Shown: one piece after another, positions 11,865-48,237 of the stretch
Layout of the letters: the number at the start of each line of letters is the position of its first letter
How positions within the stretch are numbered: position 1 is the stretch's first letter
From: Glutinoglossum americanum
Taxonomy: Eukaryota; Ascomycota; Geoglossomycetes; Geoglossales; Geoglossaceae
DNA length: 64,000 nucleotides
Reading direction: 5' to 3'
Assembly: GCA_020080175.1 (NCBI GenBank)
Contig: JAGHQL010000089.1
Span: 1 to 64,000 of the forward strand
Made by a program: the position numbers and the translations under genes
Notes under the pieces: generated by a model
What the model saw: the letters and a program-made list of their open reading frames with translations, nothing else
Told to the model about the DNA's origin: nothing
Databases searched by the model: none

Positions 11865-12109
11865 GGCGCTTTTGCATGTTGGGGATAAGTACTCTGCCAC
11901 AGACTATCCCCTGAATATCTCGCGAGCCTCAGAACATGTCACTTATCTCCTCGGTAGTAATATTAGCTAGTTGTCAGTTATTCTCTTGTCAGGGGTAGAT
12001 TACCTACCGCACCCACGACTTGCTTAATCTAATCGTCCTTCTACCTACCAGACGAGCTTATACCTCCACAGTAGGCATATTCTTTTAAAGTCTCTACTAG
12101 AATGCACTG

Positions 12110-13440: not shown

Positions 13441-13449
13441 AGGCTCGGC

Positions 13450-14340
13450 TCTCACGACTGCAGCTACGAGCAACGGTCGCCTATGGCACGCCCTGAGCAT
13501 GCTCCTTTTTTTACACCTCTCTATCTTCTTACTCGAGTCATCCCTCCTCTAGTTTTTATCCTACTCCATCCTACTCTTGAGGTACGATATACAAAACCAG
13601 TACATAGGGTGCCCCGCGTACAAGGGGAGCCCGCTGGAATTCTTCGTTTGGCGACTTGTAGAGGTGGTGTGGGCATGCTGTTCGGTTGTCTGTATACCCC
13701 TGCGGAAGCGGTTCTTGCGCTGTATTGGGGTCAACTTCCAGTTCTGGGTTACTATTTGCAAGACCTGCTTTATAGGAGGCGGTCCTCATGCACTGTACTT
13801 CGTTTTTTCTGACAAGTCAATTCTGCAACCCACGACCAGCCCACAACAGCAGAGTCACAACACGCGAATTGACATTGAACCGATGGAAGGGTCCAGAACT
13901 GTTAGGTGGTCGCCAACCGCAATCCGCTTCGCAATGCTTTTACTCTGAAAATAGCGCCTTTGTGGCTCTTTCGTAGTAACTGGGGTCGTTTCGAGCTCCG
14001 AGGTCCCGTATAATATCTGCATAAAGTCTCCATTAAGTCTTCGAACGCCCCGGTAGATTTCCCTTGTGCGCCCATCAAACCGTTACCAGCAAAGAACCTT
14101 GAGCTTCGATGCCCTCAAGGCTTACAGGAAACCGTGAAGAACCCTTTCGTGCTTGAAGCGTATTTTAGTGCGATTGCCGGTGCGACAGTACCGAGCCTAC
14201 AGAATCACTAACCCAGCCGTCAACTGAGGTGCAAAGTACAGCGCGAACACTGGCGACAGCGGCATTGCGGGCATGCGGACCATCTAGACGATTCAACCCC
14301 ATAAGCTCATCCTCCAAGCCCTCAAGAAGATTCATGGGGG
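13450..14340. other. Gene-free stretch
   Basis: Overlapping short frames on both strands show no family signal and no consistent splice structure. I see nothing else. Confidence 0.4.
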
Positions 14341-14897
14341 GATGGAAATGAAGACTGCTTAAATTTTCGGTATGAGTATTTTGCAGCCAGGCCAGTGCGT
14401 ACAGGAAGCTTTTATCGGTACAACTACTTATAGAGAAGCTGCTGGTGTTTCAGCATGGCTGCTCTCAGCCAAAAGACTTAGTCGCCACCTGTGTCATGCC
14501 CGAAAGCTTATTCGCGGGCTGGAGAGGAAAGAGGTAAAGAGGTGTGGGGGCGGGCTAAACTGCTTTCCCGGATTCGGTAGGTGTGAAGCTTTTCGCTACC
14601 AGACAGAGTGCTATGAGGGCGGGGTAAATGTCGAAACAGTGAGGCGAGCGGGGTGCTTGCGAGGGCGATTGGATATCGTTGGTCGATTCCAGCGTCACTC
14701 TTCCTTTTCTCCTCTCTCACTCCCACCCTATCTCACACGTGCCCCACGAGTTGGCCGAAAAAGAAACGCGAGCATGTACGAGTATTAGTGTTTTGCCGTC
14801 CCTCAGCCGAAGAGCGGGGTCGTCGCCCCAATTCTCATTCTGCTCCTTCTGTTCACACCGATCGTACTCTACTTCGTATTTTACGTTGCCGCCGAGG

Positions 14898-16336
14898 ATG
14901 GCCTTTGCTTGGCTTATTTCTACGTTCCGTGCGCTGCCATTTCTACATATCCGGCGGAACGACTCCCGCCTCGATGATGACTCTCATTGGAGAAGACCAA
15001 AAGAGTGAGTCCGGTCGCTAGATCTCGGGTGGGTGAGTGAATGGATCGCTAACACCCGTCCACCCACCATATATACAGCGCTATAGAGGAAGTCGCACGC
15101 CTTTTGTGGCACAGATCCTTCGCGCCCGATGTCGCTGCCGCGATTGCTGATGAGATCAACAAATACGGTTATCAGGTTGAGGGGAAGGAGATGTACAGGG
15201 TCATTTTGGCGGACGCCGTTGGGGTCGATCAGGAACTTCTATATTGCGTACCGGATGAGCATCGGTCCGACCTACTAGAATACTGGTCTTCGGTCAGTTC
15301 CCTTGCCCGTCGACAGGCTGCGTCGTCAGTAGTTGCTAGCGTCGCCCCCGCCTCTAGCCCCATCGCTAGCTCCGCCGCCGCTCCAGCCACTGTAACCGTA
15401 ACCCCCCAACCTCCAGCCCCAGCCACTTCAACAGCGCCCTCAGTCGCCCCGACAACGCCCTCAACCGCTCCAAAGGCTCCTACCTCCGCGGCGACTGAGT
15501 CTATATCTATCTTTTTTCCCCCCATTACGCTGTCCAGTCTGACAGATTCCACACTCTTAACCATTCAGACCACCATTGGTCCTATCCAAAGCGCCTCTCG
15601 GGTTGGTCTACCGAGTTCGGCACCCACCGCGGGCTCATCGCGGACGGTAGCCACAGTAATTCAAACAAGCGGTGCGGCGACTACCTCCTCCACCGGCGGT
15701 CCAGGCGGCCTCTCAAAGGGTACCAAAATTGGCATTGCGGTCGCGGTCCCTGTCGCTATCATCTTGCTCGCGGGCATCGCCATCCTCCTTTGGCTAAACC
15801 GAAGATACAAACGTAAACTAGGGTTACGGCATCCCGACGATGGACTGCCTGTCGAACAGGGTCCAGGTGTCGCCGAGGCGATGTCAAATGAAATCCAGGG
15901 GGCCAAGCACCCGAGTGGTATACCGGAAATGGCTGGCGCCGGATTCCCGCATCCATGGCTTCCTCCCCAGCGGAGTGAGCTCCATGACACTTCACGAGTA
16001 GAGGTGGCTGCAATCCCCACACCACCACGCGGCGATATCTTCCTCACCACAGGAACTCCAGAACTCCCGGCGGGAGCACCTACGCGGAACTTTGGAGCTC
16101 AAAATCCATCCAACAACACCTTCAAAGAAGCTATAACGTCTTCTCGGTGGCTCTCGCGGAAGCCCGTAGGCTCGGCCAGGCATGCGGACCCGACTCGGTT
16201 CCACGCCGGCGGAAGCAGCGTCCCAGGCCCTCTGAACGAACGCGAAAGGCAGATCCGGGAATTGGAGGAACAGCGGCAGAAGCTGGATGCAGAGCAGCAA
16301 GCTCTTCAGGAACGGCTGAGTAGGTTGCACGCGTAG
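14898..16336 (+). CDS. Type I membrane protein, unknown function (paralog B)
   Basis: Two exons (14898-15004 and 15079-16336) with a 74-nt intron give 454 aa. The architecture is the same as paralog A: a short hydrophobic N-terminus (MAFAWLISTFRALPFL), NDSRLDDDSHWRRPKD, the conserved block AIEEVARLLWHRSFAPDVA through LLEYWSSV, an Ala/Thr/Pro/Ser-rich stalk, one span at about 250-273 (IGIAVAVPVAIILLAGIAILLW), NRRYKRK, and a C-terminal coiled coil (RQIRELEEQRQKLDAEQQ). The signal peptide is weaker than in paralog A because HIRRN follows it closely. The stalk has diverged most and the membrane and coiled-coil parts least, which points to constraint on both copies. The gene's 3' flank carries the MITE at 16427. 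Confidence 0.75.
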
Positions 16337-16426
16337 GGCTCGGGACCTGTTTAGTTGTGGTTATCCCACCTTAGGATAGTTGGGATCTATTCGCACTGTA
16401 ACTGCTTAAAACGGCCCGCTTCAGTA

Positions 16427-23738: not shown

Positions 23739-26700
23739 ATGATTGATAACACCCGATTAGTCGTGCTCCCTTACCTTCAGCGATGGACAGGCTCTGCGTT
23801 GTCCATTCGATTCCTCCTCATCCCCCGGGATAGTCCTCTCGAGAAGCTTGTGCGCAGCGATCCCAAACCGAACGCACCTAGTTTTGCCACCGCGAATCTC
23901 AAATTCGATGTTACTATCGTTCCCAACCCTCTAGGCCTGCCAACGATAGGAGGCGGCACCACCGTGACCACGCTATCCTTTGACGCCCTGCCATCCTCCG
24001 GACAAATCTTCAATGGGCTGCAGGAAAGATATCCCATCGACCCGAACCCACCGGGTGCAAAGCGGGAAGATGCGTCGAGTATGCTCAATGTGGTATGGAA
24101 ACACCTCCCAGTGTCGTATCAAGATGCGGTGGGCTACACGCCTGGGGGGCGGAGCGACGGCATGGTGTTCACGGATAACCGGTACTCGTGCACGCTCAAA
24201 ACAGTTGAGCAGCCGACGAGATATGTCCCCCTTCCACCGGCGAATCCGTTTATCGCATGGGGGAGGCTGATTGCCGCGATTTTGAGGACGTCGAAGCTTG
24301 CTGAAGCGGCGGGAATGATCAGGCAGCCGGATAGTGATATTGAGGTTCCGGCGGGGATGCTTGAGAAAGGGGGTTATGTCTTCTTGACACTTGCGACAGG
24401 GAGTGATGCCAGTGGACTGCAAGCAGCGGGGGGGCTGAAGACGTATGCAGCACGGATACCCATACTTAAGACGGGAGCACCAAGGGACCTTTTCACTCCG
24501 GCGCTCTTTCCGGTAGTGGCTCCGCTGGCGACACCTCCCACAGGAGACTATGACAGTATCTTCGCCGAGGTAGAAGACTATGATGATGGCTGGGCGAAAG
24601 CCGTCCATTGTGCCCAGCCGCAGTGGCTCAACCCTACCCAGGACAAGCTCGACCCAGCTAAGCCACCTGACACAACTCGTCCACTCAAAGAACATGGTAT
24701 CCGCATCGGCTGGGACGATGAGCAAGTCACCATCTGGATGAACCGCCAGATGAACCCCGCCCGGGAGAACATCGACCTTGATGTCCCCACCGGCGTGCAG
24801 GGTTACCGCATTGACGTGCGACCTGCCCCTACCAGCGACTTCTCTCCACCCCGACCCTGGGCCTCCCTCGTTCGTGCCCAAGGTTCCTTCGCTATTAATG
24901 GCACCACCTTCGGGACATTCAATGGCGAACTCGGCGTCGAGGTCCACCCCACCCAGGTTACTGCTAACCGGAGCGCCGAGTTCTGGCTGCCCATGTATTT
25001 CACCGCGTGGACCGGCCCGTCGCTCGTCACCCCGGATATCGAGCGTATGCAGCTCTGCAACCTGCCGACCCCGCACCTCAAGGACAAGCCAGAAGTGAAA
25101 GGCGAGTCAGCGGTTAAGGGGATGAAACCCGCTGTCGAGTTGCTGTATGGAACGACTTACGAGTTCCGCGTGAGATTGATGGATCACACGGGCGGGGGTC
25201 CCGGCGTCGATGGGCAACCTACTAACCCCGGCCCGAGTCTAACATACACGATTCCCTTCCGGCGCTGGATTCGGCCGCTTGCGCCAGACTTTGTGGGCAA
25301 GGCACCCGCATTCGACGACCTCGCCGAAATGGCGCCGGCGACGATCGAGTTGAAGCGCCCATTGCTGCATTACCCAGCAGTGATGTGTACGGAGTATTAT
25401 CGCACTCGCAATCCTCTCGATATGCTGCTGGCGGACCTGGCCATCGCGGGGAAGGACCGAGAGGTCGGGTTGCCGGATCCGGATGTGATGTGGGTGGAGA
25501 TCTTGGTGGAGGTTGAGACGCTGGTGCAGGATACGCTGGCGACGGATGGGAAATTCATGGAATTGTATACGACGACGAGAGCGTTTCCCAGAGACCCAAC
25601 TCAGTCTCTCGTTGTTGAGTTGGACTACAGGGAGGACATCCCTGATGTACTAGACACAGACAAGTTTCATCCTCAGGCTACCGCAGGTCCAGTCGTGTTG
25701 CCTACCGCCCGCACAGTCCGTCTCCACATCAGTTCCCTATGTAAAGAGGACAATACAGACCCCAGTAAGCTCTACTTTGGCAATCCAGATGTCCGGAGAA
25801 GCCACACAACCTTAGCTTCGTTTCGGAAGAACTCCAACACGGAGACCGCCTTCTTTAAGCTTGACAAAGAGAGCGAAGCCTTCAACGCGTACTTCCTCCA
25901 ACCGGACCCGGCACCCACCAGCAACCTCCTCTCCGCACAACAGATGCTGGGAAAACCGAACGAGAGCGGCGCAAACATTGCGTCCCGTCTTGCCGCAGCT
26001 ATAGGCCTGCGAAATACAGGGATGACTCTGCACTCGGTTACCGGGGAAAGAGTTATCTTTGCGTGTTCTTCGGCATTTCGGCACACTCTAGGACCGGATG
26101 GGGGAAGCCTGTCGTTTGCGTCGCAGAGCGACCTGGCGTTGCATTGGATCATGGTGATCAAGCTCACGATCAACCGTGACTGGAGCTGGGACGGGCTCCC
26201 TTACGGCGGCATTGTCGTGAACCGCGATGGCGGGGGTGAGGTGGTGAGATTCTCCCCGAGTCGCAGTCTAAACAGCGAGGCGCTCGCGGGGCCGATCATC
26301 AACCGCGGTTATACCAAACTCTTCATCTTTGATGCCATCGACCCCAAGCCCGTCGGCGATGCAAATCCCCAACAACTTGACCTTGCGTATACCCTTACCT
26401 ACAGCTTCATTGGCACCCCGAACACGACAGAAAACGCACCGCGGCACTACTCCATCACGCTCCCCGTCACGACTCGTCCCCGCCAGACCCCCCGCGTCAC
26501 CTCAGCCGGCATCGCCATGTCCCCCTACGAACGAAACCCCACCTACTCAAGCACCGCCATCCGCAAAAAAGCCCTCTGGATCGAGCTCGCTGAGCCTCTC
26601 CAAGACGACCGCGACCGATATTTCGCTCGTGTTTTGAGCTACGGTCCCGACCCCTTATTGTGCGAGCCAGGCCGCTTCGCCCCCGAGACGCCAGAGTCCT

Positions 26701-27410
26701 CGCTCCCCATAGACGACGAATCAGTGCGCCGCATCATCGTTGGCCAGCAAGACGATGGCGCAGGCCGGGGTGCCATGCAGCCGCTCATCCCCTCCGACTC
26801 ACCACTGCATTGGTCCCTCCCGCTCCCACCGGGCTTGGACGAGTCATCCCCCGAGCTCTTCGGTTTCTTCACCTACGAGCTGCGCGTGGGACACTTCGAT
26901 GAAAACCTGTGGTCTACAGCCCAGGGCCGCTTCGGGGCGCCCTTGCGCGTTGCGGGCGTGCAACACCCGGCGCCGCCTCTCATCTGCACTGCCTCTTGGA
27001 GCGCTAAAGGCATCTCAGTGAGCGCACCGTTCGCAGTGCCCGTGCTGGATGGTGTGACGCAGTTCCCGCGGTACGAGCCACCGCGCAGCAGCATGTGGGT
27101 GATGCTGTATGCACAGGCGGAGCGGATCGACGGCGCGGAACGGCAGAATGTCTTGCTTCTCCAGGCGCCGGCACCGTCAATGCAGGGTGATGGGAAAGTG
27201 TGGACACATTATGGGGTGGCTAGGTTCAAGCGGGAGGATGTGTTTAGTGTCTTGCTGGGGCTAGGGTTCCTGACCACGGCGTCTCTGAGCGTGTTGGCGG
27301 TGGAGATGCTGCCGCAGGCTGATGGCGTGGAGCGTCCACTAGAATCTGGAACCGGACGCCAACGTATTCTGCGGACTTCACCGCTGACACCTGTGCGCCC
27401 ACTATGCTGA
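23739..27410 (+). CDS. Giant intronless protein, 1223 aa, unrecognised family
   Basis: This is one uninterrupted frame from ATG 23739 to TGA 27410. No intron is needed, unlike nearly every neighbour. There is no signal peptide or membrane span; the start is MIDNTRLVVLPYLQRWTG. The protein is rich in beta-type sequence with many Pro/Gly turns. A block at about residues 330-510 looks like a conserved core: GIRIGWDDEQVTIWMNRQM, GVQGYRIDVRPAP, GELGVEVHPTQ, FWLPMYFTAWTGPSLVTPD, then YEFRVRLMDHTGGGP and IPFRRWIRPLAPDF. This part has a fibronectin-III-like rhythm. From memory, similar cores occur in large hypothetical proteins of bacteria, which I cannot verify here. G+C is visibly higher than in the flanks. 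It converges with the 1540-aa gene at 27877, only 466 bp away. No function is proposed. Confidence 0.85.
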   Translation: MIDNTRLVVLPYLQRWTGSALSIRFLLIPRDSPLEKLVRSDPKPNAPSFATANLKFDVTIVPNPLGLPTIGGGTTVTTLSFDALPSSGQIFNGLQERYPIDPNPPGAKREDASSMLNVVWKHLPVSYQDAVGYTPGGRSDGMVFTDNRYSCTLKTVEQPTRYVPLPPANPFIAWGRLIAAILRTSKLAEAAGMIRQPDSDIEVPAGMLEKGGYVFLTLATGSDASGLQAAGGLKTYAARIPILKTGAPRDLFTPALFPVVAPLATPPTGDYDSIFAEVEDYDDGWAKAVHCAQPQWLNPTQDKLDPAKPPDTTRPLKEHGIRIGWDDEQVTIWMNRQMNPARENIDLDVPTGVQGYRIDVRPAPTSDFSPPRPWASLVRAQGSFAINGTTFGTFNGELGVEVHPTQVTANRSAEFWLPMYFTAWTGPSLVTPDIERMQLCNLPTPHLKDKPEVKGESAVKGMKPAVELLYGTTYEFRVRLMDHTGGGPGVDGQPTNPGPSLTYTIPFRRWIRPLAPDFVGKAPAFDDLAEMAPATIELKRPLLHYPAVMCTEYYRTRNPLDMLLADLAIAGKDREVGLPDPDVMWVEILVEVETLVQDTLATDGKFMELYTTTRAFPRDPTQSLVVELDYREDIPDVLDTDKFHPQATAGPVVLPTARTVRLHISSLCKEDNTDPSKLYFGNPDVRRSHTTLASFRKNSNTETAFFKLDKESEAFNAYFLQPDPAPTSNLLSAQQMLGKPNESGANIASRLAAAIGLRNTGMTLHSVTGERVIFACSSAFRHTLGPDGGSLSFASQSDLALHWIMVIKLTINRDWSWDGLPYGGIVVNRDGGGEVVRFSPSRSLNSEALAGPIINRGYTKLFIFDAIDPKPVGDANPQQLDLAYTLTYSFIGTPNTTENAPRHYSITLPVTTRPRQTPRVTSAGIAMSPYERNPTYSSTAIRKKALWIELAEPLQDDRDRYFARVLSYGPDPLLCEPGRFAPETPESSLPIDDESVRRIIVGQQDDGAGRGAMQPLIPSDSPLHWSLPLPPGLDESSPELFGFFTYELRVGHFDENLWSTAQGRFGAPLRVAGVQHPAPPLICTASWSAKGISVSAPFAVPVLDGVTQFPRYEPPRSSMWVMLYAQAERIDGAERQNVLLLQAPAPSMQGDGKVWTHYGVARFKREDVFSVLLGLGFLTTASLSVLAVEMLPQADGVERPLESGTGRQRILRTSPLTPVRPLC

Positions 27411-27876
27411 GCTCATCTTTTGTCCGCTTGTTGTCACCCCCTATCCAAGACAGAATATCTGCCCTGTTCCGTTTCCTCCCCTTTTTGGATCTCTATCTTC
27501 TGTGATACATGAATCATGACTATTTCATTCGGCTCATCCTGTTTAATGAATCACGACAACTGCCTGAAGAGACGACCCTTATTTCTTTGTTATTCCTGTT
27601 ATATTTTGAGACTTAAATTACACGAAATACAATGAAAGCTCTAATAATTTTGGCATTCGGCTGGTAATTAATGGCCAAAAGGATAGGATTGAGGTCAATG
27701 GGCCGGGTGTTCCGAAACAAGGAATAATTATCCCAAGCAGTAAATAAATTATAGGCAAACGCTAGGGTCATTTCTGTTCATGAATTGTGGCTGCCGTTAA
27801 CCTTCATAGTTATCAATTTTCACACTAAGTGGAATAGAAAGCAATAGGCGGCTGAGTTGACAGCCTGCAATGAAAA
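27411..27876. other. Convergent 3' region between the two giant genes
   Basis: This is AT-rich, non-coding sequence between two stop codons facing each other. It presumably contains both 3' untranslated regions and polyadenylation signals (AATAAATT and AATACAATGAAA are seen), with no other feature. Confidence 0.5.
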
Positions 27877-30800
27877 TCACATAATTGCTCCCATCTCTGA
27901 CAACTCGCAAACGTTTCCCTTAAGCCTGCTACTCCATTCCGCCTGCTCGTGCACATGAACGTTAACGACCCAGAAGATACTCACGTCCAGTGCGATGGTG
28001 ACCTGTGCCCAGGCCCAGATAGTATTTTCACCATCACGGGGACACTTGCCTCCAGTCAGCATCAGCGTAGCTTCCAGGAAGAGATCAGCCTGCGCCACCA
28101 GGATGTCTACGTGTGCTTTGATGGCCGATGTGGCAGTGACCCCCCACCCGCCGTGGTCGTTCGCCATAATGGTCTGAGTCTGCGAGTAGTAAGCCGACGC
28201 TCCGAAGACGCCGACCTGGAAACTCACACCTATGCCGACGCCGAGGCTGAAGTCCATGGTGGTCCCGCTGGTGCCCAGGGCGAGGTCGAAGCCGGCGATT
28301 CCAAGGGCCATGGGGCCGAAGCCCGAGTCGACTTTGATGGTGACTTTAATCTTGAGGGAGGTGTCTGAGGTGGAGAGGGTGCTGCGGGATTTTATGCTGA
28401 GCGAGAAATCCTGGAGTATTTTTCTCATGGCGGCCTCGGCCGCGGCCCCGGCCCCGGCGGTGTGGTCTTTGATCTTTGCGAAGAAGTCTTCGAGGCCCAT
28501 GGTGCTGCTAATCTCGAGGGACCATTCGTTGGTCATGGAGACCTTGAAAGGTGGGAGGATGTGGAGGCTATCGAGGAAGGCCACGACTTTCTTGACCTCG
28601 GCGAGTGCGTCGCCGAAAATATGTTGGGGGTTGAGGAACTCCGTCACCTTGCCGGCTTCGCTCGACAGGCCCCCGAGGATGCGGGACACCTCTGCTTTAG
28701 CATCGCCTGCGCCCTGAGTTATCATTTCGACAGCTGGCAGGTTTGCAACCCATGCTTTCGCGGAATTCGCCGTGTCGATGGACAAGTTTTCTAAATCGCC
28801 AGAGAGCTTCACCAGAGAGGCGAAATTCTCATCTTTCTGCAGTTCGCGCATGCTATCTAGAGTTAGTTTCCCCGGGTTGAACAAGAGATTGTTGGCATCC
28901 GTGAGGTGGAGGGTATACTTCGGATCGGGGGGGACAGGGAATACCCCGGGTTGGAGAGGGTTCCAGGGAGGGAGGGGAACACAACTCATAACCGGAGGGA
29001 AAATACCAGAGGATTTGCCAAGTGCAAACGCATCTGCCAGGACCGGAGGAATGCGACTCGTAATGCCCTTTTTAAGGCCCGTGGCTAGATCCTCCAGTTG
29101 GACGGACGGGTTCTGGAACCACAACCGGTGGGAGTCTCCCGCGTGGAGGATGCTGTAATTGATCCTTGGTGAGTCGAGGTTTAGGATATCGCTTGGATCG
29201 GAGAAGTTGTAGGGGATTGGTGCGGTAGGTGGTGGGCTACCGACTGCCCCAGGGCGTACTAGCGGTACCCCTTTGTTACCATCAATCGGCTTAGGCGCAG
29301 CGTCATCTGCGGTATGGTGTGTAAATGACCACTGACCGCCCCCTGGAAAGATCGGAGATCCCCACGCAGCCATCGCAAACTCCCTGCTTCCGCTGGGGTT
29401 GGTCATGGCGGTTGCCGCTACTCCAATGCTTGTGACGCGCATCTTGAAACCTGACCCAGCCACATCAATGACGGCGTCCACCGGCCCACCTAGCGTATTA
29501 GAACCAAGAACCGATACATAATCGGCGGCCGTAGGGGTGGGGCCTGTGCCAGCGTTGTTGGAGCTAGCGCCGGGGCGCAGGACAACATAGCCCACCTGGT
29601 CCCTGGCGGGCACTGGTGCAGTAGCACCTTCAAGTTCGATACTGCAGTCGAAAATCACCAAGCTAGACTTAGGATTCTTGACATCGCGGATATTGGTGAC
29701 ATTAGTGACGCCACGGACCACTCCAGGGTGTGTAACGATGGTGTCGGACGGCTGGGTTGGCGGCGGGAATTTGTATTCGCCATCGCTGGCCGCCTTCCAC
29801 CCACTGTCGCGACGCACAACGGCACCGCTGTTCATGCGCTCGATGGTGATGGTACGTACGACGCGGATCGCATAGGGGAAGATGATACTAGTCATCTGAA
29901 CGACTTCACGTGCAGTGCGGCCTGTGAACACGTCAAGTTGGACCTCCGAGATACCCGGTTCTACTTCGGCGCGCCAATCGCTAAAGACAGATTCCCCGAA
30001 GCCGGATATATCGACACGGGTCACAGGAAGCTTTGGCTTGTTCCCGCTAAAATCCCTATTGAAAGTATCGTCTATAGGTTTTAATACGGAAAGGTTGCTT
30101 ACGCCTGGCAAATAGGCGGCAGCCCCTTCAAGTGGCGGGGTGTTGCGTATGTCGTCTGTAAGGGAGGGGGTAGGCACGCGGATAGAGATCTGATCACCGC
30201 CCGTGAGAGAAGTGCGGTTGTTACCAGTGAGAGGGGGCGGGAAAGCTGGCTGCACTGGCATAACTATAGGCTGGGGGACGTCAGACCGGCTGGCCCTGGC
30301 AATCGCTATAATCCCGAACGGTAGGGAGAATCGTGCTACCACTGGGATTGGCGGAAAGGATGCATTATATCCGTTGAGTACATTGTCAATAGCGTCACGT
30401 GGCGCAATTGATACCAACTTGACGGAGTCCGAAGCAATGTACGTAGCAGGACCAGAATAGAGGAAGGAAAAACTCTCGTCGACCGATCCAGTGGCGGGAT
30501 CCAGTCCGACCATCGCTTCCCACTGTACAGCTGGCAGAGCAAAGACTCGCAGGTTAGCCGCCTGCGTCTGCAGCGCCATCCCGGAGACCGTGTGATCTTC
30601 TGCGAGCGCTGGGAACGAGACGCCAAACTGCGAGACATTAGTCGAGAGGTCCAGGAGTTTTGGACCCTTCTGTTCGGCGATGTTGAACTCGTTTTGTTTG
30701 TCGGCAAAGCCGGTAAGATCAATGCGCGACGGGTCAAACAGGTTGGAGATATCGTCCTCTGGCAAGTACTTAACGGGGAGGCTTCTGAGTGGCGAGGGTG

Positions 30801-32499
30801 GAAGAGCAAGATCCACAGTCACGGGATGCTCCATGTCCCAGGTGAGCTTGATAGTCATGTTACCAATAACGCCCACATCCTGTTGTCCACGAGGGTCATA
30901 GTGAATGTTCGTCGCATATGGGTCCGGGAGGAACGGAAGCACAAAACGCAACACCGAATCCAGCGCCAGAGTCCCGGACGTCAGTGCTCCGTCGGCAAAC
31001 TGACCAACTGCTATGAGGTCGCTTGGGAGATTGGCTTTCAAGAGGAGGTTCTTAATGGCGTAAGATTGAGTCTGTAATGGAGGATCTTTGCTGGATCTAA
31101 TGGTCAGAGTGGTTGTGTGGGCTGTTGTGTCTCGGGTGAGAATGAAGGCAGCACGATTGGCGTACTGCACTCGAGCGCCATTGATCGTGCGTGGCTGATC
31201 AAGAGAGGCGACCAACTCGGTTGTCATGCTCCAAGCTTTGTTGCCGTTTTCCTGCTCGATGAAGCGGAATATAAACGGAGCGGAATTTCGAAATGTCAGT
31301 GTGCTCCTCCTTACGCTGCTGCTATCTCCGCCTCCACCTTTCTTCTGCCCTACCGTGACGATTTGCGCTAGATTCGGCGCTGTCGCTGCATCCCCAGCTA
31401 CCCCGAGTGTCCCAGAATTCGAGGTGATAACAACGCCAGCACCGCAGGTTATCGGACTATCTCGTCCGAGAGGGAGGACAGACACACCGGCACCTAGCGT
31501 TAAGCTAATTCCGCCGGAGCCCAATGCCTCTGCGAACGTGGCTGTGGCGGAAATGGCGATGGGTATTACCCAACTCGCAGCAGCGATTGGAGCAGCTCCA
31601 GTGAATGTAGCAAGGTCTGATATGCTGCTCGTAATCTCAAAGGTCTCCTTGCCCGGAGTGAAGGGGAAATGTAGTCTGCCGTTCTCGATGTTGTAAGATG
31701 GTGGCTGCTGCTGTTGCAGCTTGACTGTCTCCCCGAACGCCGTGATTTCTCCTGGATCAGCACTCAAGAATTTCACCATCTCCGTTCGGGTGAACCTGAA
31801 TGACACTGCTCCAGGTGTCACAGCGGACCCATCAACCATCCCGCCGGTCCCAGCCGTATTTATACCTTCCTGCAACTCCAACGTCACGTTGACATCACTT
31901 AGGAAGATGGAATAGCGAAGCTGTCCACTTTTGACCTTCAGACCCACATACCCATCTAGCTCTCCCCCAAACTGGCTCGCCGGGATCCAGACGCTGCCAG
32001 AGCCGATCGTGGCGAGCTGGAAGTTGATAACCGTTTGCGGCATGGAGATATACATGAAAGGGGGGTCGGCTGCATCGAGGCGGAGAGGAGTGTAGGGGAT
32101 CGGAGTGAAGACATCAATGGCAACGCGTTGGCCGAAAGAATCGAGGAAAGGGCCATGTGTCGCGCTGGGTGCTTGGCCGCCACCGATGGCAATGTCTATA
32201 TGCGGATCTGGAGATAGGGTCGTCGCAAATATGCGGCGGAGAGTGCGCTGGAGACCTGTTGGGGCCGTAAATGAGGACATGAGGTTGTCTAGCGAGGTCC
32301 CATCACCACTGGTGTGCGGTGTATTATCCGCGGTGGATCGGGTAAGGCCAAAGGAACCAGCGTCTTGCCCTGTCAGAACAGATTGCGCAATCGCCAGCTG
32401 CGCGCTCCTCAAGTCTTCTAACTCTCCCGGCGACGTCGACACAGGACGAAGGTCCTGCGTCAGCGATTCGAGCAGCGGTCTCATAGGTTCCCAATCCAT
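27877..32499 (-). CDS. Giant intronless protein, 1540 aa, unrecognised family
   Basis: This is a single open frame of 1540 codons from the ATG ending at 32499, with no intron and no signal peptide. The N-terminus (MDWEPMRPLLESLTQDLRPV) is helical. Next come long beta-rich tracts (IDIAIGGGQAPSATHGPFLD; FGGELDGYVGLKVKSGQLRY; RSTLTFRNSAPFIFRF) and Pro-rich linkers. A helical stretch at about 1230-1390 includes DENFASLVKLSGDLENL and VKKVVAFLDSLHILPPF. The C-terminal 150 residues are glycine-rich alternating strands (FGPMALGIAGFDLALGTSG; DFSLGVGIGVSFQVGVFGAS), then aromatic strands (IWAWAQVTIALDVSIFWVV). Such alternation suggests a beta-barrel or beta-solenoid-like end. Length, absence of introns and G+C match the convergent 1223-aa gene, so the two probably arrived and work together. 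Function is unknown. Confidence 0.85.
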   Translation of the reverse strand: MDWEPMRPLLESLTQDLRPVSTSPGELEDLRSAQLAIAQSVLTGQDAGSFGLTRSTADNTPHTSGDGTSLDNLMSSFTAPTGLQRTLRRIFATTLSPDPHIDIAIGGGQAPSATHGPFLDSFGQRVAIDVFTPIPYTPLRLDAADPPFMYISMPQTVINFQLATIGSGSVWIPASQFGGELDGYVGLKVKSGQLRYSIFLSDVNVTLELQEGINTAGTGGMVDGSAVTPGAVSFRFTRTEMVKFLSADPGEITAFGETVKLQQQQPPSYNIENGRLHFPFTPGKETFEITSSISDLATFTGAAPIAAASWVIPIAISATATFAEALGSGGISLTLGAGVSVLPLGRDSPITCGAGVVITSNSGTLGVAGDAATAPNLAQIVTVGQKKGGGGDSSSVRRSTLTFRNSAPFIFRFIEQENGNKAWSMTTELVASLDQPRTINGARVQYANRAAFILTRDTTAHTTTLTIRSSKDPPLQTQSYAIKNLLLKANLPSDLIAVGQFADGALTSGTLALDSVLRFVLPFLPDPYATNIHYDPRGQQDVGVIGNMTIKLTWDMEHPVTVDLALPPSPLRSLPVKYLPEDDISNLFDPSRIDLTGFADKQNEFNIAEQKGPKLLDLSTNVSQFGVSFPALAEDHTVSGMALQTQAANLRVFALPAVQWEAMVGLDPATGSVDESFSFLYSGPATYIASDSVKLVSIAPRDAIDNVLNGYNASFPPIPVVARFSLPFGIIAIARASRSDVPQPIVMPVQPAFPPPLTGNNRTSLTGGDQISIRVPTPSLTDDIRNTPPLEGAAAYLPGVSNLSVLKPIDDTFNRDFSGNKPKLPVTRVDISGFGESVFSDWRAEVEPGISEVQLDVFTGRTAREVVQMTSIIFPYAIRVVRTITIERMNSGAVVRRDSGWKAASDGEYKFPPPTQPSDTIVTHPGVVRGVTNVTNIRDVKNPKSSLVIFDCSIELEGATAPVPARDQVGYVVLRPGASSNNAGTGPTPTAADYVSVLGSNTLGGPVDAVIDVAGSGFKMRVTSIGVAATAMTNPSGSREFAMAAWGSPIFPGGGQWSFTHHTADDAAPKPIDGNKGVPLVRPGAVGSPPPTAPIPYNFSDPSDILNLDSPRINYSILHAGDSHRLWFQNPSVQLEDLATGLKKGITSRIPPVLADAFALGKSSGIFPPVMSCVPLPPWNPLQPGVFPVPPDPKYTLHLTDANNLLFNPGKLTLDSMRELQKDENFASLVKLSGDLENLSIDTANSAKAWVANLPAVEMITQGAGDAKAEVSRILGGLSSEAGKVTEFLNPQHIFGDALAEVKKVVAFLDSLHILPPFKVSMTNEWSLEISSTMGLEDFFAKIKDHTAGAGAAAEAAMRKILQDFSLSIKSRSTLSTSDTSLKIKVTIKVDSGFGPMALGIAGFDLALGTSGTTMDFSLGVGIGVSFQVGVFGASAYYSQTQTIMANDHGGWGVTATSAIKAHVDILVAQADLFLEATLMLTGGKCPRDGENTIWAWAQVTIALDVSIFWVVNVHVHEQAEWSSRLKGNVCELSEMGAIM

Positions 32500-34408: not shown

Positions 34409-37400
34409 CTACCATATTAGCCGTCGTTTGGGTCGTCGACTGGACGATCGATTAGCCCCTGCATTGGGGTCTTGCTCGGCCCCATTCTCGAGCAATAGTT
34501 TCGCAATGTCTTCGTGCTCAAGCTCCACAGCCCAGGATAGCGGTGTTTTCCCAGACTTGTCTTTGGAATTCGGATTGGCTCCTAACTCTAGCAGTGCCTT
34601 TATCATGGCATCGTGTCCATTCTGTATGGCCGCCATGAGTGGCGTCTGGCCTCCATTGTCTCTAGAATCCACATTGACTCCCCTTTTAAGCAGCATCCTT
34701 GCGATAGCCACGCGTCCATTCCGTGCGGCACAGAACAGTGGTGTCTGGCCGACATCATCCTTGGGGCCTGGGTCGACACCATTCTGGAGCAGCAGCTCCA
34801 CTTCAGCATCGCACCTGCCATACGCAGCCCACCACAGCGGCGTCCGACGGTTGTTATCTTTGGAATCTGGGTCGGCCCCCCTACATAGCAGCATCCTCAC
34901 CATGTATTCATCTCTGTTTCCCGAGGCCCACGATAGTGGTGTCCGGCCATTATTGTCCCTCGGGTCTGGGTGCGACCCCTTTTGAAGCAGTTCCCTCACT
35001 ATGGTCTCATACCCATACTTTGCAGCCAACAGTAACGATACTGGACTACCACTAGAGCCTGGGAAGGTGATAACTAGCCTTCCAAAGTCTCTGTAACCCC
35101 TCTTTGAGGCTCGTAATATTGGTGTGTCGCCATCTACATCTTCGGGGTCCCGATAAGCTCCTTTTTCGAGCAATATCCTCGCCATAGTCTCACTCCCTAT
35201 ATCCGTCGCCCACCACAGTGGTGTCCGCCCACTCTTATCCGCTGACTCTAGTTTAGCCCCCCCCTCGAGTAGCAGTTTTGCCAGATCCACATGCCCCATC
35301 TTCACCGCCCAAGTCAGCGGTGTCCAGCCATTGTTGTCCTTTGATTCCGCGTCAGCCCCATTCTCGAGCAGCAGCTTCGCTATAGCTCGATATCCCTTCT
35401 GCGCAACCCACACTAGTGGCGTCTGGCCGAATCTGTCCCTGGATTCCGTGTCCGCCCCTCGCTCGAGTAGCAGCTTAGCTATGGCCTCGTGTCCCCTCTG
35501 CGCGGCCTGCGACAGTAGTGACTGACCAAATTTGTCCCCGGATTCTATGTTAGCCCCTTCCCCGAGCAATAGCTCCACCATGGCCTCGTATCCCTCCTGG
35601 ACAGCGAGCGCGAGTGGCGTCCGGCCAAATATATCCTCGAGATCCGGACTAGCCCCGCCCCTGAGCAGCAGCCTAGCCAGAACGCCGCGCTGGTTCTGCA
35701 CGGCCCACGATAAAAGCGTCTCTCCAGACGTGCCCTGGCGATCCGGATTGGCCCCACTCGCAAGCAACAGCTTTCCTGGCATAAACGGATCCTTGGGGAT
35801 TAGCATCAGCGGCGTTTTCCAGACCCAATTAGTCAATTCCATGTTGGCATCCTTTTCAAGTAGCATCACTATAGGTACGTGTCCTCTATTTGCGGCCCGC
35901 ATCGGTGGTGCGTTACCATACAAATCCCCGAATTCGAGTCTAGATTTCTTCCAGAGTAGCTGCCACACTATACTATCGAGTCCAAGATATGATCCTACTA
36001 TTAGGCCAGTGGGCAAAATAGGGCCATAGTCGTTTGGACCATTATCGTTAGCCCAGTATAAAAGAAACCATGTTGGGGATCGCCCGGACCGTGCACAACA
36101 AATATCAAGCGCAGAGTCCAATAGTGCTGTATCCTGCCCAATTCCTATTTTTCCGAAATGGCCAGCCCAGTGTTCTGCAGCATAATCCAGGAAGACATAT
36201 TTATGAGTGTATTCTCGCAGTGAGACCATCCTTCGAACTGGAGGATCGCTCTCAAACTCAGAGAACAGGAGATATAAGACGCAGATCGTGGCAAGGATGC
36301 GGTTTGATTCGACTGGCTGCAATGAATGCTTCCAGCCCCCAAGGCGCATATCATTATGGCCAGACGGTTGGCAATTATCTTCCCCGTTGACCAGATATTC
36401 CTTAGCAGTTTGATGAATCAAATACACCCGCGAATCTACGATATTCACGAAGAGACCGCAGAGGTTTCTGACAGTGGTCCGAAAGGACACTTCTGGCTCG
36501 AGATCAAGATCTTCGTATGACCTGCTACTGACTTCGATTGATAATGCCACATTCATTTCCGCTAAGGTTAGTGGCCTAGCGGCTGAAACGATGATATGGA
36601 GAAGTTTTCTCGCCCTTCTTACATCTGTGCTCCTCTCTAATATCGCTCCGTAGGCCTTGTCAACTGTGTCAGGGATGGTGCCGATGATTCCGTGGAGTCT
36701 CTTTTCAGTGACATCCAAGCGACGGTGGATCACCTCGAGAATTAACTTTAACCAGAGGTAAGTTCGATGTGTAATTTTCAGAAGCTCCCGTTCCAAGGAC
36801 GTCCGTACGGAATCGTCGAGTCCTAAATCAGACCCAATTTCCTGAACCCTAGCTTTGATGACAAGATCAATTTCGCGACTGATGGACTCTGTCTCCTCTT
36901 CACCCGCTAGCCGGATGGTGGGAATGTGGAGGGTCAGCCGCCTGAAATTACGTTCTATGTCGTAGTAAGGCCGACTAGTTACAAGGAACTTCAATCTGGC
37001 CCCCTTTTGGTTACTAGTGGCGCTGCGATAAAATTGATCTAAAATGCTGATGAGGCCAAATCGTCCCGTCTCTTCGCACTCATCGACTGCGTCTAAGATG
37101 CATACGATTTCGCCCGCTTCAGGATCCGATGCTGCAGAGGTCAGAATACGCCACAATGCGTCAAACAACTGAGGGAGCATGGACCCGTCTCGCTCAAAAT
37201 CAGGTACGGCATGCTGGAGAAGGATGCTGTTCTGCGAGAAAAGCTGGTGTAGTAAAGCGCACAGAGCATTCTCTCTCGTCTTTTGCTCAGTGTTATCTTC
37301 CTTGAAGAAAAAGTAACAAGTGGTGCGTGTTTCTGTACTTTGTAGCTCATTGTCCACAAGAGACTTCGAAAGAACGGATTTCCCACAGCCCGGATCAGCG

Positions 37401-38752
37401 GATACCCAAAGCAGACTCGACGTCTTGCTTTCCAGCCAGGTGCGGTAATTTACGTGCCGTAGAAACCATTGGCAGGTTCCGTGAACACGATCTGGGTTTC
37501 TGGCCTTGTGTGCTTCGTAGTCGGAGGTGCGGAGAGTCTGATGGCAAGCCTGTCGGATTTCAGCCTCAAGCCGTGCTTGTTGGGCTTGTATTACAGCTTG
37601 GGCTTCAGTACATATTATTAGCTATGGCACTGAAAGCGCGATGGAACTTTGAATTCCCACTGGGGACCAGGTGAAGGAATGCGCAGTGGAATTTGGGAAC
37701 GGGACGTTATCCTGGCCCTCGTTGACTTCCAGCGTCTCCACTCGAGATTAGAAAGCAGACTCACCAGCGCCAGACACCGCACTAGTCACCATAGCAGCAG
37801 TTGGTGTACTTCCTACTTGACTTATTGGTACGACGCCGAGAAGCTCCTTTGCATATGCCGCCGCCGTGGCGGCGGCATATCCTTGCCATCGCTTGTTCTT
37901 ATGGGTATCCGCATAGTCGCAGACCCCTCGTATGACGAGACATGGAAAATTATCCATTAAGCCGGCTGCCTCCATTTCAAAGCAGAGCATGCCAAGTTCC
38001 TTTCTGAGCCGTTCCCTGGTGGCACCATGTCTCATAACCCGATTGCCAGAGGCGATGAGCCCGTAGTGAATGGCTGGAGTACAGCGCTGATCTCGGTTGA
38101 CCAACTCATTTATATCGCAGTTCTCGCATGTGTCACCGTTTTTGTGGTCGTATCCAGGTTGGAACAATTGATCATGATCTGCACCCTGATATGTATACCT
38201 AGGCTCCATGCTGGGGTACTTTTTCAGCATTTGCGATAGGTGTTGCTGGAGGCGATTCTGCCCCATGAGGTGCTCTGTCTCCAATCTGGAAACTGCTGCT
38301 AGAAGCACGGGAGGCGGCTTGTTCAGTGTACCTGTGCGCACGAACTGGTTCTCTCCAATGGTTTTTCCGAAATCATACTGCATCACTCCACCATAGGTGT
38401 CGAAAGGCTTACTGACTACCACATCACCAAGCCTGATGTCGGTAAGTCCGCCAGGTACTCCACCTCCGATGCCTACCATCAGACCAAACCTTATCGATTT
38501 AAAAGTGGAGAGCATTCGAGCGGCGACTATAGCCGCAGAACTTATACCCGTGACACCCGAACCTAGACAAGCGATGGCGACATTATGATCCCCAATGCTT
38601 CCCAGGATGTAATTATTTTGGTCAGATGGGCGCTGCGGCAGGTCGCCGTGGCGTTCGTCCAGCATCGCAGCAGCCGCAGCCATCTCAGTTGGTAGGGCGC
38701 AGATCCATCCAACAGTGTAGTCCCTGTGCATAAGAGGACTAGAGGACGCCAT
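34409..38752 (-). CDS. PNP-NACHT-ankyrin receptor (fungal NLR-like protein)
   Basis: Two exons are inferred (38752-37765 and 37596-34409) with a 168-nt intron (GTGAGT...CCCAAG), giving 1391 aa. Residues about 10-315 form a nucleoside-phosphorylase-like (PNP_UDP) domain: YTVGWICALPTEMAAAAAML, GLMVGIGGGVPG, DIRLGDVVVSKP, and LGMLCFEMEAAGL with VIRGVCDYADTHK. A linker (DYEAHKARNPDRVHGTCQWFL) leads to a NACHT NTPase with Walker A ADPGCGKSVLSKSL (about 396-409), Walker B VCILDAVDEC (about 494-503) and sensor FLVTSRPYYDIE. About 15 ankyrin repeats fill residues about 885-1375. The layout is that of fungal NOD-like receptors thought to act in non-self recognition: repeats sense, NACHT oligomerises, and the PNP domain is a putative enzymatic effector. 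Start 38752 gives a normal PNP N-terminus; in-frame codons upstream lack an ATG. Confidence 0.87.
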
Positions 38753-39955
38753 CTCGTAGGACTGCAACCACGAGAGCTGTGATTTATGAGAGGAAAGTAT
38801 GCTACTCACGCTCGACGAGATCGATCAGGGGCTTCTCCATAGAGCAAAAGCCTTTTCGCCCACACGTAATATGCGTTTAAAGCAGCACCGCAATTTAAAA
38901 TATCCAACACCGTTAGCGCCCAGCGGAATGACCAATTGCGAAGGACTGACAAAAAGTAAAGCTGCAGCGGGATGCCGCTTTTATGGTGCCCAAGGCAACC
39001 TCTAGGAATGGAGAGGCCAAGCTTTAAAACGGAGCGATGCCTATTACGGGCCAATTTGACATGAAATCGCTACCCATTGAGGGAGGGAGTTGGAAAGTAG
39101 TTGGGGACCTAGGGCTAGTCGAGGAGCCCCAAGTGGCCTTCGGCTATTTTCTTGGCACTCTGGACGGTCCAACTGCAAGGGCTAAACTAATTTGGGTAAT
39201 TAGCGACAGTTGCGACTCGTTCTAACCCAGGCACAGCTAAGGCGGCCTAGCGCTAAAACAGCCGAGGAATTCTCATGGCCTATAGCGGCACACTCCCAAT
39301 AGCTAACAATACACCACGATATCGAATAGGCGCCCTAGTAGTTGTTTGTGTGATGTATCAGGCATTAAGGGTCAGCTCCTAGCGCTCTGGAGCAAACCAC
39401 GGGCCCCGGGCCAGGCGCAAGGCTGCTGGGGAGTGGGAGGCGTAGCATGTTGGAAGTTGAGCGAGCGACTCCATTGTTTGCTTAAATACACAGGAAACCA
39501 ACTAGACTATATAGACGCGGAGAGCTGGAGGCTCTCCATCAGAGGTCTCCTATCGGGTAAACCCAAGGCACTTGCCATGGGAATACGAATGCGAATAGCT
39601 GAGTTGAGAGCTATTTTCAACATAGCAAGCGGGCACGATACAAATTATCTATCCCAGCAGAAAGAAGCCACATACGAATTGGTAAAGGGCAGGAGGCAAG
39701 ACGTAGCCAATCAAACGAGAGCAAACACGATTCAGCGCTATTTCATCCACATGCATGCATAACGCGGTAGCTTTATATATTGCCGCCGCAGATACTACGA
39801 ATGAGCGAGGGTAAGCAGCATCCGAGCCATAGATACGGATACTGTATGAAGAATAATTGAAACGCATTTTATATTCGTACGGATTATGTGAACAGCACTA
39901 AGGAACCCAATAACAACGGGCTGGAATCTCTACAATCCGATACAGACAGCGCCTT
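38753..39955. other. Gene-free stretch left of the Mutator-like element
   Basis: No supported gene is seen. The first few hundred bases are upstream of the receptor's start. A plus-strand frame at 39346-39762 lacks an ATG start and family signal. Confidence 0.4.
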
Positions 39956-39964
39956 CACACGCCC

Positions 39965-40070
39965 GGGCGTCAGTATTGCCACGCACCGGTTTGGTAATGC
40001 CACGCAAGTAGTTTGGTAGTGCCACGCAAATAGTTTGGTAGTGCCACGCATTGATTTTGGTAGTGCCACG
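39965..40070 (+). repeat. Left terminal inverted repeat of the MULE
   Basis: The 106-bp terminus is made of repeated GGTA(G/A)TGCCACGCA units. It pairs with 42013-42118 at few mismatches (CAGTATTG versus CGGTATTG near the tip). Such internal subrepeats could be transposase binding sites. Confidence 0.9.
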
Positions 40071-40139
40071 TACCCGTAACTGTAGATCACCTCAAGAAAA
40101 TTTTTTCATCGCACTTACTGTGCCCGCATCAGCATTACC

Positions 40140-41975
40140 ATGGTCCTACTTCTACTATCAGAGACTGAAGAGTATGATACTCAGCAGTGTCTTATTGCAG
40201 CAATCCAAGCTCATGCAGCAGCGGAAGGATATGCTGTAACAATTCGGAATTCAAACAAAACTACAAAGACAACCTATCTTGGATGCGATAGAGGAAGGGT
40301 TTACCGGAATCGCAATAACCTACATGATGACAATCGCCAGCGGGATACTGCAACAAGGCTTATTAGGTGTCCCTTCTCCATTAGGGCTTCAGAACGGGAT
40401 GGTGTTTGGACTTTAAAGGTGCGTAATCCAGAATATAACCATTTCGCAACAACAGTTGCTTCTGCACATCCTGTACAACGACGTTTTTCTTCCGACATTA
40501 AAAAGCAGATCAAAAATTTATCTACTTCTGGTGTCACACCTTCTCAAATTGTTAGTACTATTCGGCAATCTACTAATCAATCTCTTACTATACAAGATGT
40601 GTACAATACTCAAAAAGAACTAAAATAGGAGAATCTTTATGGTAAAACTCCTATTGAAGCTCTACTTGAGACTTTACAACATGATACATATACTTTTTAT
40701 TATAAAACCAATCTTGTTGATTGAATTACTTATTTGTTTTTTGCACATTCAAAGAGTGTTGACCTATTGAACCAGTTTCCTGAAGTTATATTACTTGATT
40801 GCATATACAAAACTAATCGCTTCAAGCTTCCCCTTTTAAATATTATAAACACAACATGCCTAAATACTACGTTCTATATTGCATTCTGTTTTATCCAACA
40901 TAAAGATGAAGAAAGTTTCACTTGGGCTCTCACCCAATTACAGTCTCTTTATTGTAATAAAACTTTTTAAGTTCTCATTATAGATCGGGATATGGTACAG
41001 CTAAAGGTAGCTCGAATTGTATTTCCTAAAATACTCCGAATGCTTTGTGTTTGGCATATTAAAAAAAATATTCTCGTACATTCTTCCCGATATATTAAGG
41101 ATATAGAGGAGTGGGAGGAATTTATGAAGGACTAGATAAACCTTATCAATAGTTCGACTATTTTGGTTTATGACACTCGATGGAAAGAGTTTGAGGCAAA
41201 GTATCAGCCGTAGTATCCTTTACTAGTGTTATATCTTATAGACACTTGGCTCGGGACTTGGAAAGTTTTAGTGGTTAGGGCATGGGTTGATCAGTACTTG
41301 CATTTGGGAAATTGAGCAACCTTACGAGTAGAGAGGGCACATAGCGTGTTGAAGTCATATCTACAAGTTTCAACTAGTGACCTCAAAGCAGTATACGATA
41401 AAATCACCTTGCTGCTCACAAACCGATTTGCCGAATTTGAAACAGCAGTCGAATCCAATAAAATACGCATCCCACATACAGCACAAGACAGCTTCTATGC
41501 ATCCTTAGTAAGGCAAATCTCTAGTTATACTCTAGACAAACTCTGGGATGAATGACATCACCTCAACTTACCAGATCCTCTTCTGGCCTGCACAGGGTCA
41601 TTCTGGCATTCTATGGGAATGCCTTGTGCTCACGATATGCAAGAACGACTTATCGAACAAGGCACTCTTCAACTTGATGATATTCATCATCACTGGTACC
41701 TAGTAACACCCCTCCCTCGTGTTATGGAGCCGTTAGTATTGGAGCCAGCTCGAGAGAATTTAGGAAAAAGAGTTCAGCTATCCAAGATACAGAGTTGCCG
41801 TAGCAATCGAGCTTCCCGCGCCCGCACATCTACATTACAAGCTGGCATAGCTACCTCACGAACCCATCCAGCTACCCAACGAACTCGTGTAGCTACTTCT
41901 TCTACACGACGAAATCCTTCAGAGTTTGAGGTGGTGCTGAAGAGCCAGCGGCAGCTTAGGAAGCGGCAGAACTAG
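40140..41975 (+). pseudogene. MULE transposase with FAR1-type N-terminus, stop-riddled
   Basis: One continuous frame of 612 codons encodes a FAR1/MULE transposase. A FAR1-like DNA-binding N-terminus (AAAEGYAVTIRNSNKTTKTTYLGCDRG, TGCPFSI-like region) is followed by the catalytic domain with LLDCIYKTNRFKLPLL and VLIIDRD. The C-terminus has a SWIM-like MGMPCAHDM. Seven in-frame stops interrupt it (at about 40626, 40722, 40968, 41134, 41214, 41313 and 41553), yet there is no frameshift. Each stop can be explained by a G:C to A:T change of CAG/CAA, TGG or CGA. The frame is AT-rich. This is the signature of repeat-induced point mutation rather than random decay. Confidence 0.85.
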
Positions 41976-42012
41976 CCATTTTGTATCTAATTTATAATCT
42001 CCACTCTAAGCG

Positions 42013-42118
42013 CATGGCACTACCAAAATCAATGCGTGGCACTTCCAAACTATTTGCGTGGCACTACCAAACTACTTGCGTGGCATTACCAAACCGGTGC
42101 GTGGCAATACCGACGCCC
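42013..42118 (-). repeat. Right terminal inverted repeat of the MULE
   Basis: This is the inverse of 39965-40070, with the same length and subrepeat order, ending GGCAATACCGACGCCC before the CACACGCCC target duplication. Confidence 0.9.
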
Positions 42119-47297: not shown

Positions 47298-48237
47298 TAT
47301 ATTAGGGTAGATGACCAAGCACGAAGCATCTAGCTTCCGGATTTCGGCCGGAAATATACTCAACTCGGCTTTATAAAAGTCTATTATGGGATTAGCTTTT
47401 AACACTAATATTAATCAGGTTATTTTGTCTTGTTTACGAAGCCTACTGGCACAACCGTTAACGCCACATGTATATAAAGATCTTTCACCCTCCACCCTCC
47501 TTCCTCCTTCACGCAGCCTCCTGCCTATAATACCATACAATAAATCAATTCTTCTGACAGTACCCCTCTTCCGTGACAAAGTCTTACAAGTTTCCCTATA
47601 ATTATTCAGTCCGCTTGAGGATAACCCTCGCTCGAATGAAATAAATAAAAGCTCAAAAAAAAAATGCAAGTAGAGTCGTGGTTGTGATATCGGATTCTAT
47701 TTCAGCATACGGTTTCTATACAATTTGGGTAGAATTTCCCGTGCTCAAGGTGATTAGCCATTGAACAACAACAACGTATCCGAGCAGTCTCAGATTTTAT
47801 TCTCCGGTAACGCTTGTATAGTGCATGTTGCGAAATTGTTGGACATGAATAATTCATACAACAGAGGTAGTTGCACTTTAGCCTTGTTTACGTCACATTT
47901 AGCCATGTCAGACTCCAGTAGGTACTTACCGTAATGGGAGTTAGGGCTGACTACTCATATACCCCCAGCTAAAGTTGATCAAGGGGGTTATCTCCAAAGA
48001 GGCAGAATGGCCTAAACATGCGATACTGCCGGTGCCTATTTCTCAATTCTCTGATAATACTAATACCACTACCTGAACCTTTCCCCTTTGTCCTTTGGCG
48101 AGGATATTGGTTAAAGGCATAAACCTTTTCGCTGGGTATGCGGGTAAGAAAATAGGGTTTGGGGGTACATGTTTTCTTACAGCATTCCCGACTATAGTAC
48201 ATGACTAGCAATCCCAGCCGAGCATCCTATTCTCCCT
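47298..48237. other. Gene-free stretch downstream of the PKS relic
   Basis: No supported gene is seen. The region has AT-rich and low-complexity parts, including a run of A near 47657. The right end should be the 3' flank of the PKS. Confidence 0.4.

Follow-up and report, generated by a model that had tools for sequence, protein, structure and literature searches.

The 64,000-nucleotide stretch of Glutinoglossum americanum contig JAGHQL010000089.1 analysed here (the window) contains two giant intronless genes, A and B, which in all likelihood were acquired by the fungus from bacteria and have been kept intact. That they constitute a two-gene module of bacterial origin had been proposed in an original prediction made from the letters of the window alone, and the proposal is supported by two observations. 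B was found by tblastn in 79 of 84 bacterial loci (L001 to L084), in all 79 of them upstream of A and on the same strand, and the A and B proteins of the window are placed with the same bacteria in their respective trees.

The gene pair in the window

An open reading frame (ORF) check of the window recovered both frames at the positions, with the lengths and in the facing arrangement that the original prediction had given (Table 1). The longest stop-free run in the region comprises 1540 codons, compared with 350 or fewer in 200 single-base shuffles. The N-termini of A and B both line up with those of their bacterial relatives, and A reaches the bacterial C-terminus too; hence, no terminal exon seems to be missing. 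By eye, a purine occupies position -3 at the start of each gene, and a single AATAAA is present in the intergenic region, at 27743 on the + strand, the strand that was scanned. No second copy of A or B was detected within the window by tblastn at E values up to 1. The two genes are, as claimed, richer in G+C (0.59 in A and 0.56 in B) than the 10-kb flanks (0.508 and 0.492), and the gap between them is poorer.

Table 1. Position of the two genes and of their principal regions in the window
Feature	Position	Strand	Basis and remarks
Gene A, 1223 aa, intronless	23739..27410	+	ORF, bacterial relatives, full-length alignment, trees
Gene B, 1540 aa, intronless, beta-rich	27877..32499	-	ORF, bacterial relatives, adjacency, tree, model
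Convergent intergenic region, 466 bp, G+C 0.399	27411..27876	.	
Conserved core of A, residues 324-488, GWDDEQ to TGGGP	24708..25202	+	Invariant columns, clade II profile match
C-terminal region of B, residues 1382-1526, eight predicted strands	27922..28356	-	Low model confidence

Relatives in bacteria

In a collection of 72,556 plasmid records, four records matched A and three of these matched B; the replicons belong to Chlorohelix (Chloroflexota), Microvirga and Tistrella. The matches on three plasmids covered 99-100% of A and 64-81% of B, and A aligned end to end with the three homologs at 38, 38 and 36% identity. B lies upstream of A on the Chlorohelix, Microvirga and Tistrella replicons. 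The B protein of a Rhodopila metagenome-assembled genome (MAG), locus L005, matches residues 12-1536 of the 1540 of the window protein.

A scan of genome contigs with the A alignment yielded 351 pattern matches, of which 186 were confirmed as relatives and 80 loci were kept; as the scan was restricted by its patterns, 186 is a lower bound. According to the record titles these relatives are distributed among Bacteroidota, Pseudomonadota, Acidobacteriota, Actinomycetota, Cyanobacteriota, Ignavibacteriota and Thermodesulfobacteriota, to which Chlorohelix adds Chloroflexota as the eighth phylum, although single assignments may be wrong because many relatives are lone MAG contigs. Carriers are sparse: with the known ones included, full-length A occurs in six genomes out of 397 in the Rhodopila family and in two out of 245 in the Streptomyces order, the latter with two additional weak partial matches. 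The stretch of A from GWDDEQ to TGGGP, which the original prediction had likened to large bacterial hypothetical proteins, is conserved in the bacterial relatives, with invariant columns in the alignment. It lies, moreover, in the region that A has in common with a distant second clade (clade II, described below).

The bacterial arrangement is compact. With starts picked by script, the distance between B and A ranges from -100 to +100 bp in 67 of the 79 loci and from -100 to +300 bp in 73, and is larger in six. The five loci without B are L004, whose A is a 344-aa fragment, and four in which a contig end is only 14-1874 bp away from the start of A; in L015, L071 and L077, three of these four, the C-terminus of a B protein could be read by eye directly upstream. 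Among 247 genomes sampled evenly from the Algoriphagus phylum, centre included, a strong A match was present in eight, each with B adjoining, one of the eight pairs being split over contigs; one further genome had a partial B only. The pair WP_173945856.1 and WP_173945857.1 of the Microvirga terrae plasmid pR24_1 exemplifies the comparison with the fungus: the same two families are paired, but the bacterial genes are co-oriented in the order B-A whereas the fungal ones converge. In view of this derived order, A and B of the window are filed as members of the two protein families and not of the B-A operon type.

No other constant partner gene emerged. Clusters of flanking ORFs other than A and B occurred in at most 15 loci, at scattered positions, and seemingly reflect mostly Algoriphagus synteny. 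A Pfam tally covered 59 of 64 listed flanking ORFs, which had been taken from the members with lower G+C within a hand-picked set of 37 loci; no family turned up in more than two members. Neither analysis disclosed a constantly linked immunity or secretion gene. A catalase near the pair on two plasmids was considered as a linked gene and discarded, neither copy recurring in any other of 100 loci. Natural B-A fusions in L006 and L007 were likewise dismissed, the long frames there lying in G+C-rich DNA in frames other than those of B or A. Two plasmid loci seem to be degraded: the A-family fragment of L004, on a Microvirga plasmid (15029-16063), has no B match and is probably a decayed copy, and in L003, on Tistrella pTM1 (10276-14988), B ends early, about 1 kb before A, its frame being probably broken.

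Placement of A and B among bacteria

In a tree of 90 A sequences (LG+G4), the window protein groups with the A of the Rhodopila MAG L005 (support 100) and then with Luteimonas and Massilia (99), within a mixed bacterial clade. The tree of 79 B sequences, midpoint-drawn and unrooted, contains the same two nodes with support 100 and 99, and both recurred at 99 when 22 A sequences were analysed with LG+C20. On rooting the A tree with six clade II sequences over the common core, the fungal protein remained nested among bacteria (98 and 98). Nesting among bacteria is seen for A under an outside root, and for B in an unrooted tree. Locus L005, a binned contig, is bacterial-looking by its G+C (0.658) and gene layout.

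Both proteins have preserved most of the residues that are constant elsewhere. Of 70 columns without variation among the 62 other rows of its alignment, A retains 69; B retains 37 of 40 such columns, in its case among 52 other rows. Identity to L005 at first, second and third codon positions is 0.63, 0.71 and 0.39 in A and 0.52, 0.62 and 0.34 in B; this is the pattern of coding constraint, taken over the whole path between the window and L005 and not along the fungal branch alone. B has drifted more than A.

Weighing the origin of the pair

Several points weigh against a transfer from bacteria followed by intact maintenance. All trees come from quick searches with the Shimodaira-Hasegawa-like approximate likelihood-ratio test (SH-aLRT) as the sole support measure. 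The nearest bacterium is only about 53% identical in A and about 40% in B. When near-invariant columns are considered, A keeps 0.918 of them, the seventh lowest value of 63, and B 0.731, the lowest of 53; together with the long branch of B in its tree (1.34) this could mean faster drift. The third-position G+C of L001 (0.55-0.57) and of L002 (0.70-0.72) is near the fungal value, so that G+C alone cannot distinguish an ameliorated gene from one donated by a medium-G+C bacterium. Finally, relatives were sought in bacterial genomes, plasmids and phage or viral records, and a single fungal copy is known; the distribution in eukaryotes may thus be wider.

The last point bears on the possibility that A and B are eukaryotic genes of ancient origin, since lost from the majority of lineages, and look bacterial because the searched collections, which do not cover fungi, lack their fungal homologs. 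Transfers from bacteria to filamentous fungi are a disputed matter, and according to PMC11898892 most claims of interkingdom transfer in Pezizomycotina dissolve once more fungal homologs are added. Such an ancestry is nonetheless improbable here. Vertical descent and loss would have to reproduce everything at once: two linked, intronless genes with the same placement inside a bacterial clade, rooted in the case of A, and a tight bacterial pair for which no further constant partner was found. A bacterial fragment joined into the fungal contig, by chimeric assembly or contamination, would account for intronless, G+C-richer genes with bacterial relatives, some of them of similar third-position composition, but it is very improbable. 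The third-position G+C of A (0.67) and B (0.62) is host-like, falling within the range of six window frames (0.50-0.69), whereas the values of the three closest relatives are much higher (0.85-0.96; 0.85-0.86 in L005), and the codon-usage distances from A and B to window frames (0.083-0.131) fall inside the spread among those frames (0.065-0.154). Furthermore, the genes converge on an AT-rich gap instead of following the bacterial operon order, fungal-type genes flank them on both sides, and a Pfam scan of 30 other frames of the window pointed to no neighbour of bacterial type. The reverse direction, with Rhodopila and its relatives receiving the pair from fungi, hardly deserves credence. The window protein and that of the Rhodopila MAG are sisters, and a lone fungal tip gives no direction by itself; nevertheless, the fungal A is nested among bacteria once the tree is rooted on clade II, and it is the gene order of the fungus that departs from one that is constant in bacteria.

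The most satisfactory explanation is a transfer from bacteria. A and B would be two subunits of a bacterial module, encoded in the order B-A in one tight operon, and the linked pair would have entered the ancestral lineage of this filamentous ascomycete by horizontal transfer. The operon would then have become two convergent genes, presumably with a promoter each, and purifying selection would have maintained both intact. We infer that the transfer was joint and, because bacteria carry the two proteins together, that these act together in a two-subunit complex. The acquisition of bacterial operons by yeasts was reportedly described by Goncalves and Goncalves in 2019. A siderophore operon is one case of this kind. 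There, as here, a linked bacterial gene set is said to have moved into a fungus, but those operons are reported to code for metabolic enzymes, whereas the two genes of the window converge and their giant products belong to families not yet described. According to PMC11952965, yeast does not normally express a bacterial-type polycistron, although bicistronic expression can be switched on under selection. A pair of convergent genes would not face such a barrier.

Predicted structure and sequence families

The description of the proteins as beta-rich agrees with the predicted models of the L005 A homolog and of B. The model of the former has a mean predicted local distance difference test score (pLDDT) of 90, a predicted template modelling score (pTM) of 0.66 and consists of a long run of beta domains. 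Foldseek matched it to fibronectin-III tandems in the PDB and, among viral proteins, again to fibronectin-III folds, many annotated as fibronectin III or tail proteins; in both searches the query template modelling score (TM-score) was at most 0.16 among the 50 matches listed, and there was no global match. From the model of this closest bacterial homolog, A is predicted to be a chain of fibronectin-III-like domains. The likeness to fibronectin-III tandem proteins, such as receptors and phage tail proteins, is structural only: the local domain fold is similar, but the global fold is not matched and there is no match in sequence, A giving no significant fibronectin-III profile match and none to any Pfam family up to E 10.

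The model of B, built for residues 341-1540, has a mean pLDDT of 74. Its last eight strands are 9-18 residues long, and in blocks of ten residues their pLDDT is 44-75, that is, of low confidence. Hydrophobic residues alternate significantly in seven of these eight strands (p <= 0.023; p = 0.082 in the last one), compared with p < 0.05 in two of 25 other B strands tested. With low confidence, the C-terminal region of the model is a candidate for a membrane- or lipid-facing sheet or barrel. Foldseek gave no confident fold match for B (best E 5.8e-4; query TM-score at most 0.12 among the 50 matches listed). Microsomal triglyceride transfer protein came first among the weak matches, followed by the FimD usher, ApoB in third place and then outer-membrane barrels. 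The likeness of B to large lipid-transfer proteins and outer-membrane barrels is weak and local, and no sequence relation to them was found.

Two crude measures served to look for export signals: the presence of a twin-arginine translocation (Tat) motif and, within the first 60 residues, that of a hydrophobic stretch, defined as 12 residues whose mean hydropathy exceeds 2. By neither did A or B of the window have a signal peptide, as the original prediction had maintained. Among the L001-L084 rows whose start is delimited by an in-frame stop, the Tat motif was absent from all 83 A and all 71 B sequences, and the hydrophobic stretch was confined to a single A row (L008). Rows open at the 5' side numbered one for A and eight for B. 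When all + strand rows were taken, partly extended upstream, the motif occurred in 0 of 90 A and 0 of 84 B, and the stretch in four A and no B. Since no export signal was found, the pair would be cytosolic in the fungus or would be released by a non-classical route.

Searches of Pfam and NCBIfam with A and B returned no family and no enzyme domain. Six proteins from three A-B pairs matched none of the PADLOC anti-phage defence models at E up to 1. A sequence search of the PDB gave nothing for A and chance-level matches for B (best E 0.16), and no solved structure of the family pair was found. The sole match in PHROGs was one of B at E 0.28; phage records contained no relatives of A or B, and viral contigs, scanned with A, contained none either. 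Homology of A and B to each other was considered and is unsupported (hhalign probability 0.1). A keyword search of the literature brought up no recognisable description of either family, which is not proof of none.

A distant second clade

Relatives of a second kind, clade II (L095-L100), were found in five genomes of the 247-genome sample and in one genome of the Streptomyces order. Their A' proteins (about 1411-1453 aa) match the central part of A only, and over the core region they are homologous to it (hhalign E 3.8e-11, probability 97%). Each of the six loci has a long frame immediately upstream of A', of 1692-1750 aa in five (B') and of 1267 aa in L100 (B''); B'' is 29-31% identical to B' over more than 1300 columns. 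Clade II pairs thus have the gene order of the bacterial clade I pairs, similar sizes and a common A core. They differ in the upstream protein: all five B' rows begin with a Tat-like motif followed by a hydrophobic stretch, and B' contains a long helical segment, both unlike B. B' also has weak apolipoprotein-like helices, far below the Pfam cut-off, which may reflect plain helical composition. Profile comparison is no more than suggestive of a relationship between B and B': hhalign gave E 0.017 and probability 2.7% at full length, E 5.1e-4 and 31% for the C-terminal part, E 0.087 and 0.7% for the core, and nothing for the N-terminal part. By eye, a frame resembling ruvB lies near the pair in L096-L099, and one resembling era in L096, L098 and L099.

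What the pair may do

The predicted models permit a tentative proposal of low confidence. A would serve as an elongated scaffold or binding arm, while the amphipathic strands at the C-terminus of B would contact a membrane or lipid surface, the two proteins forming a large assembly at a membrane or hydrophobic surface. Weighing against this idea is that its lipid or membrane element comes from the low-confidence part of the B model and from weak fold matches. A cytosolic structural or lipid-carrying assembly without an antagonistic role, such as a coat, a scaffold or a lipid-transfer particle, is conceivable but doubtful. It would suit proteins that lack a recognisable export signal and enzyme domain, and the presence of microsomal triglyceride transfer protein and ApoB among the weak B matches and of apolipoprotein-like helices in B' points in the same direction. 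However, those fold matches are weak, the helices are subject to the reservation on composition already made, and the Tat-like N-terminus of all five B' rows argues for an extracytoplasmic site in clade II. Rather unlikely is a secreted or released toxin-like complex, with A as the binding arm and B as a barrel-forming subunit that attacks competitors. The sparse distribution, the joint occurrence of the two genes, the amphipathic strands of B and the resemblance of the A arms to phage tail proteins in fold searches are what such a complex has in its favour, but neither family shows a signal peptide, none of the Pfam, NCBIfam and PADLOC searches gave a match, and no immunity or secretion gene is constantly linked.

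The surroundings of the pair

The neighbours look like those found in a filamentous ascomycete. The NLR-type neighbour announced in the original prediction is real: a frame at 34409-37357 contains NACHT (NPHP3_N) and ankyrin domains. Just upstream on the same strand lies a PNP_UDP frame (37748-38809), and the span 34409-38824 is probably one NLR-like gene with an intron. Further neighbours are a second ankyrin frame, polyketide-synthase pieces, an MFS/TRI12 transporter, an aspartyl protease and a CorA-like frame. Some neighbour genes are spread over at least two frames, as would be expected of introns or of decay. Scans of the window for Rfam families and for tRNA genes were both empty.

Other features of the window were observed in passing. 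Inverted repeats of 104 bp (98% complementary) flank a G+C-poor stretch of 2.15 kb at 39965-42118, suggesting a DNA transposon; inside them, the frame 40086-40625 has a weak match to PF08731 (AFT), below the cut-off. A frame with ankyrin repeats only (42287-45052) has 99-bp repeat units; adjacent copies are in places 89-92% identical, which indicates that the repeats have turned over recently. On the - strand, at 48200-57000, polyketide-synthase pieces (KS, AT, DH, KR and ACP) occupy several frames, owing to introns or to a broken highly reducing synthase. Two gene copies that are 75-79% identical and about 9.5 kb apart (5403-6804 and 14894-16338) have no Pfam match above the cut-off, and a stretch of 159 bp is duplicated at 9564 and 14360.

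Significance

Two giant genes that are paired in bacteria appear to have moved together into a fungus, to have passed from an operon to a convergent arrangement and to be still intact. They lend themselves to a study of the way in which a eukaryote renders a bacterial operon usable. The analysis also brings out a large bacterial protein family pair, with at least 186 relatives of A and a second clade, that has no match in Pfam or NCBIfam. Clades I and II may represent, as a speculative reading, an undescribed and widely mobile class of two-protein assemblies, each composed of a fibronectin-III-like arm and a giant lipid- or membrane-engaging protein. The fungus would have domesticated such an assembly by splitting the operon and placing each gene under a promoter of its own, and would employ it in its membrane biology or in dealing with other organisms.
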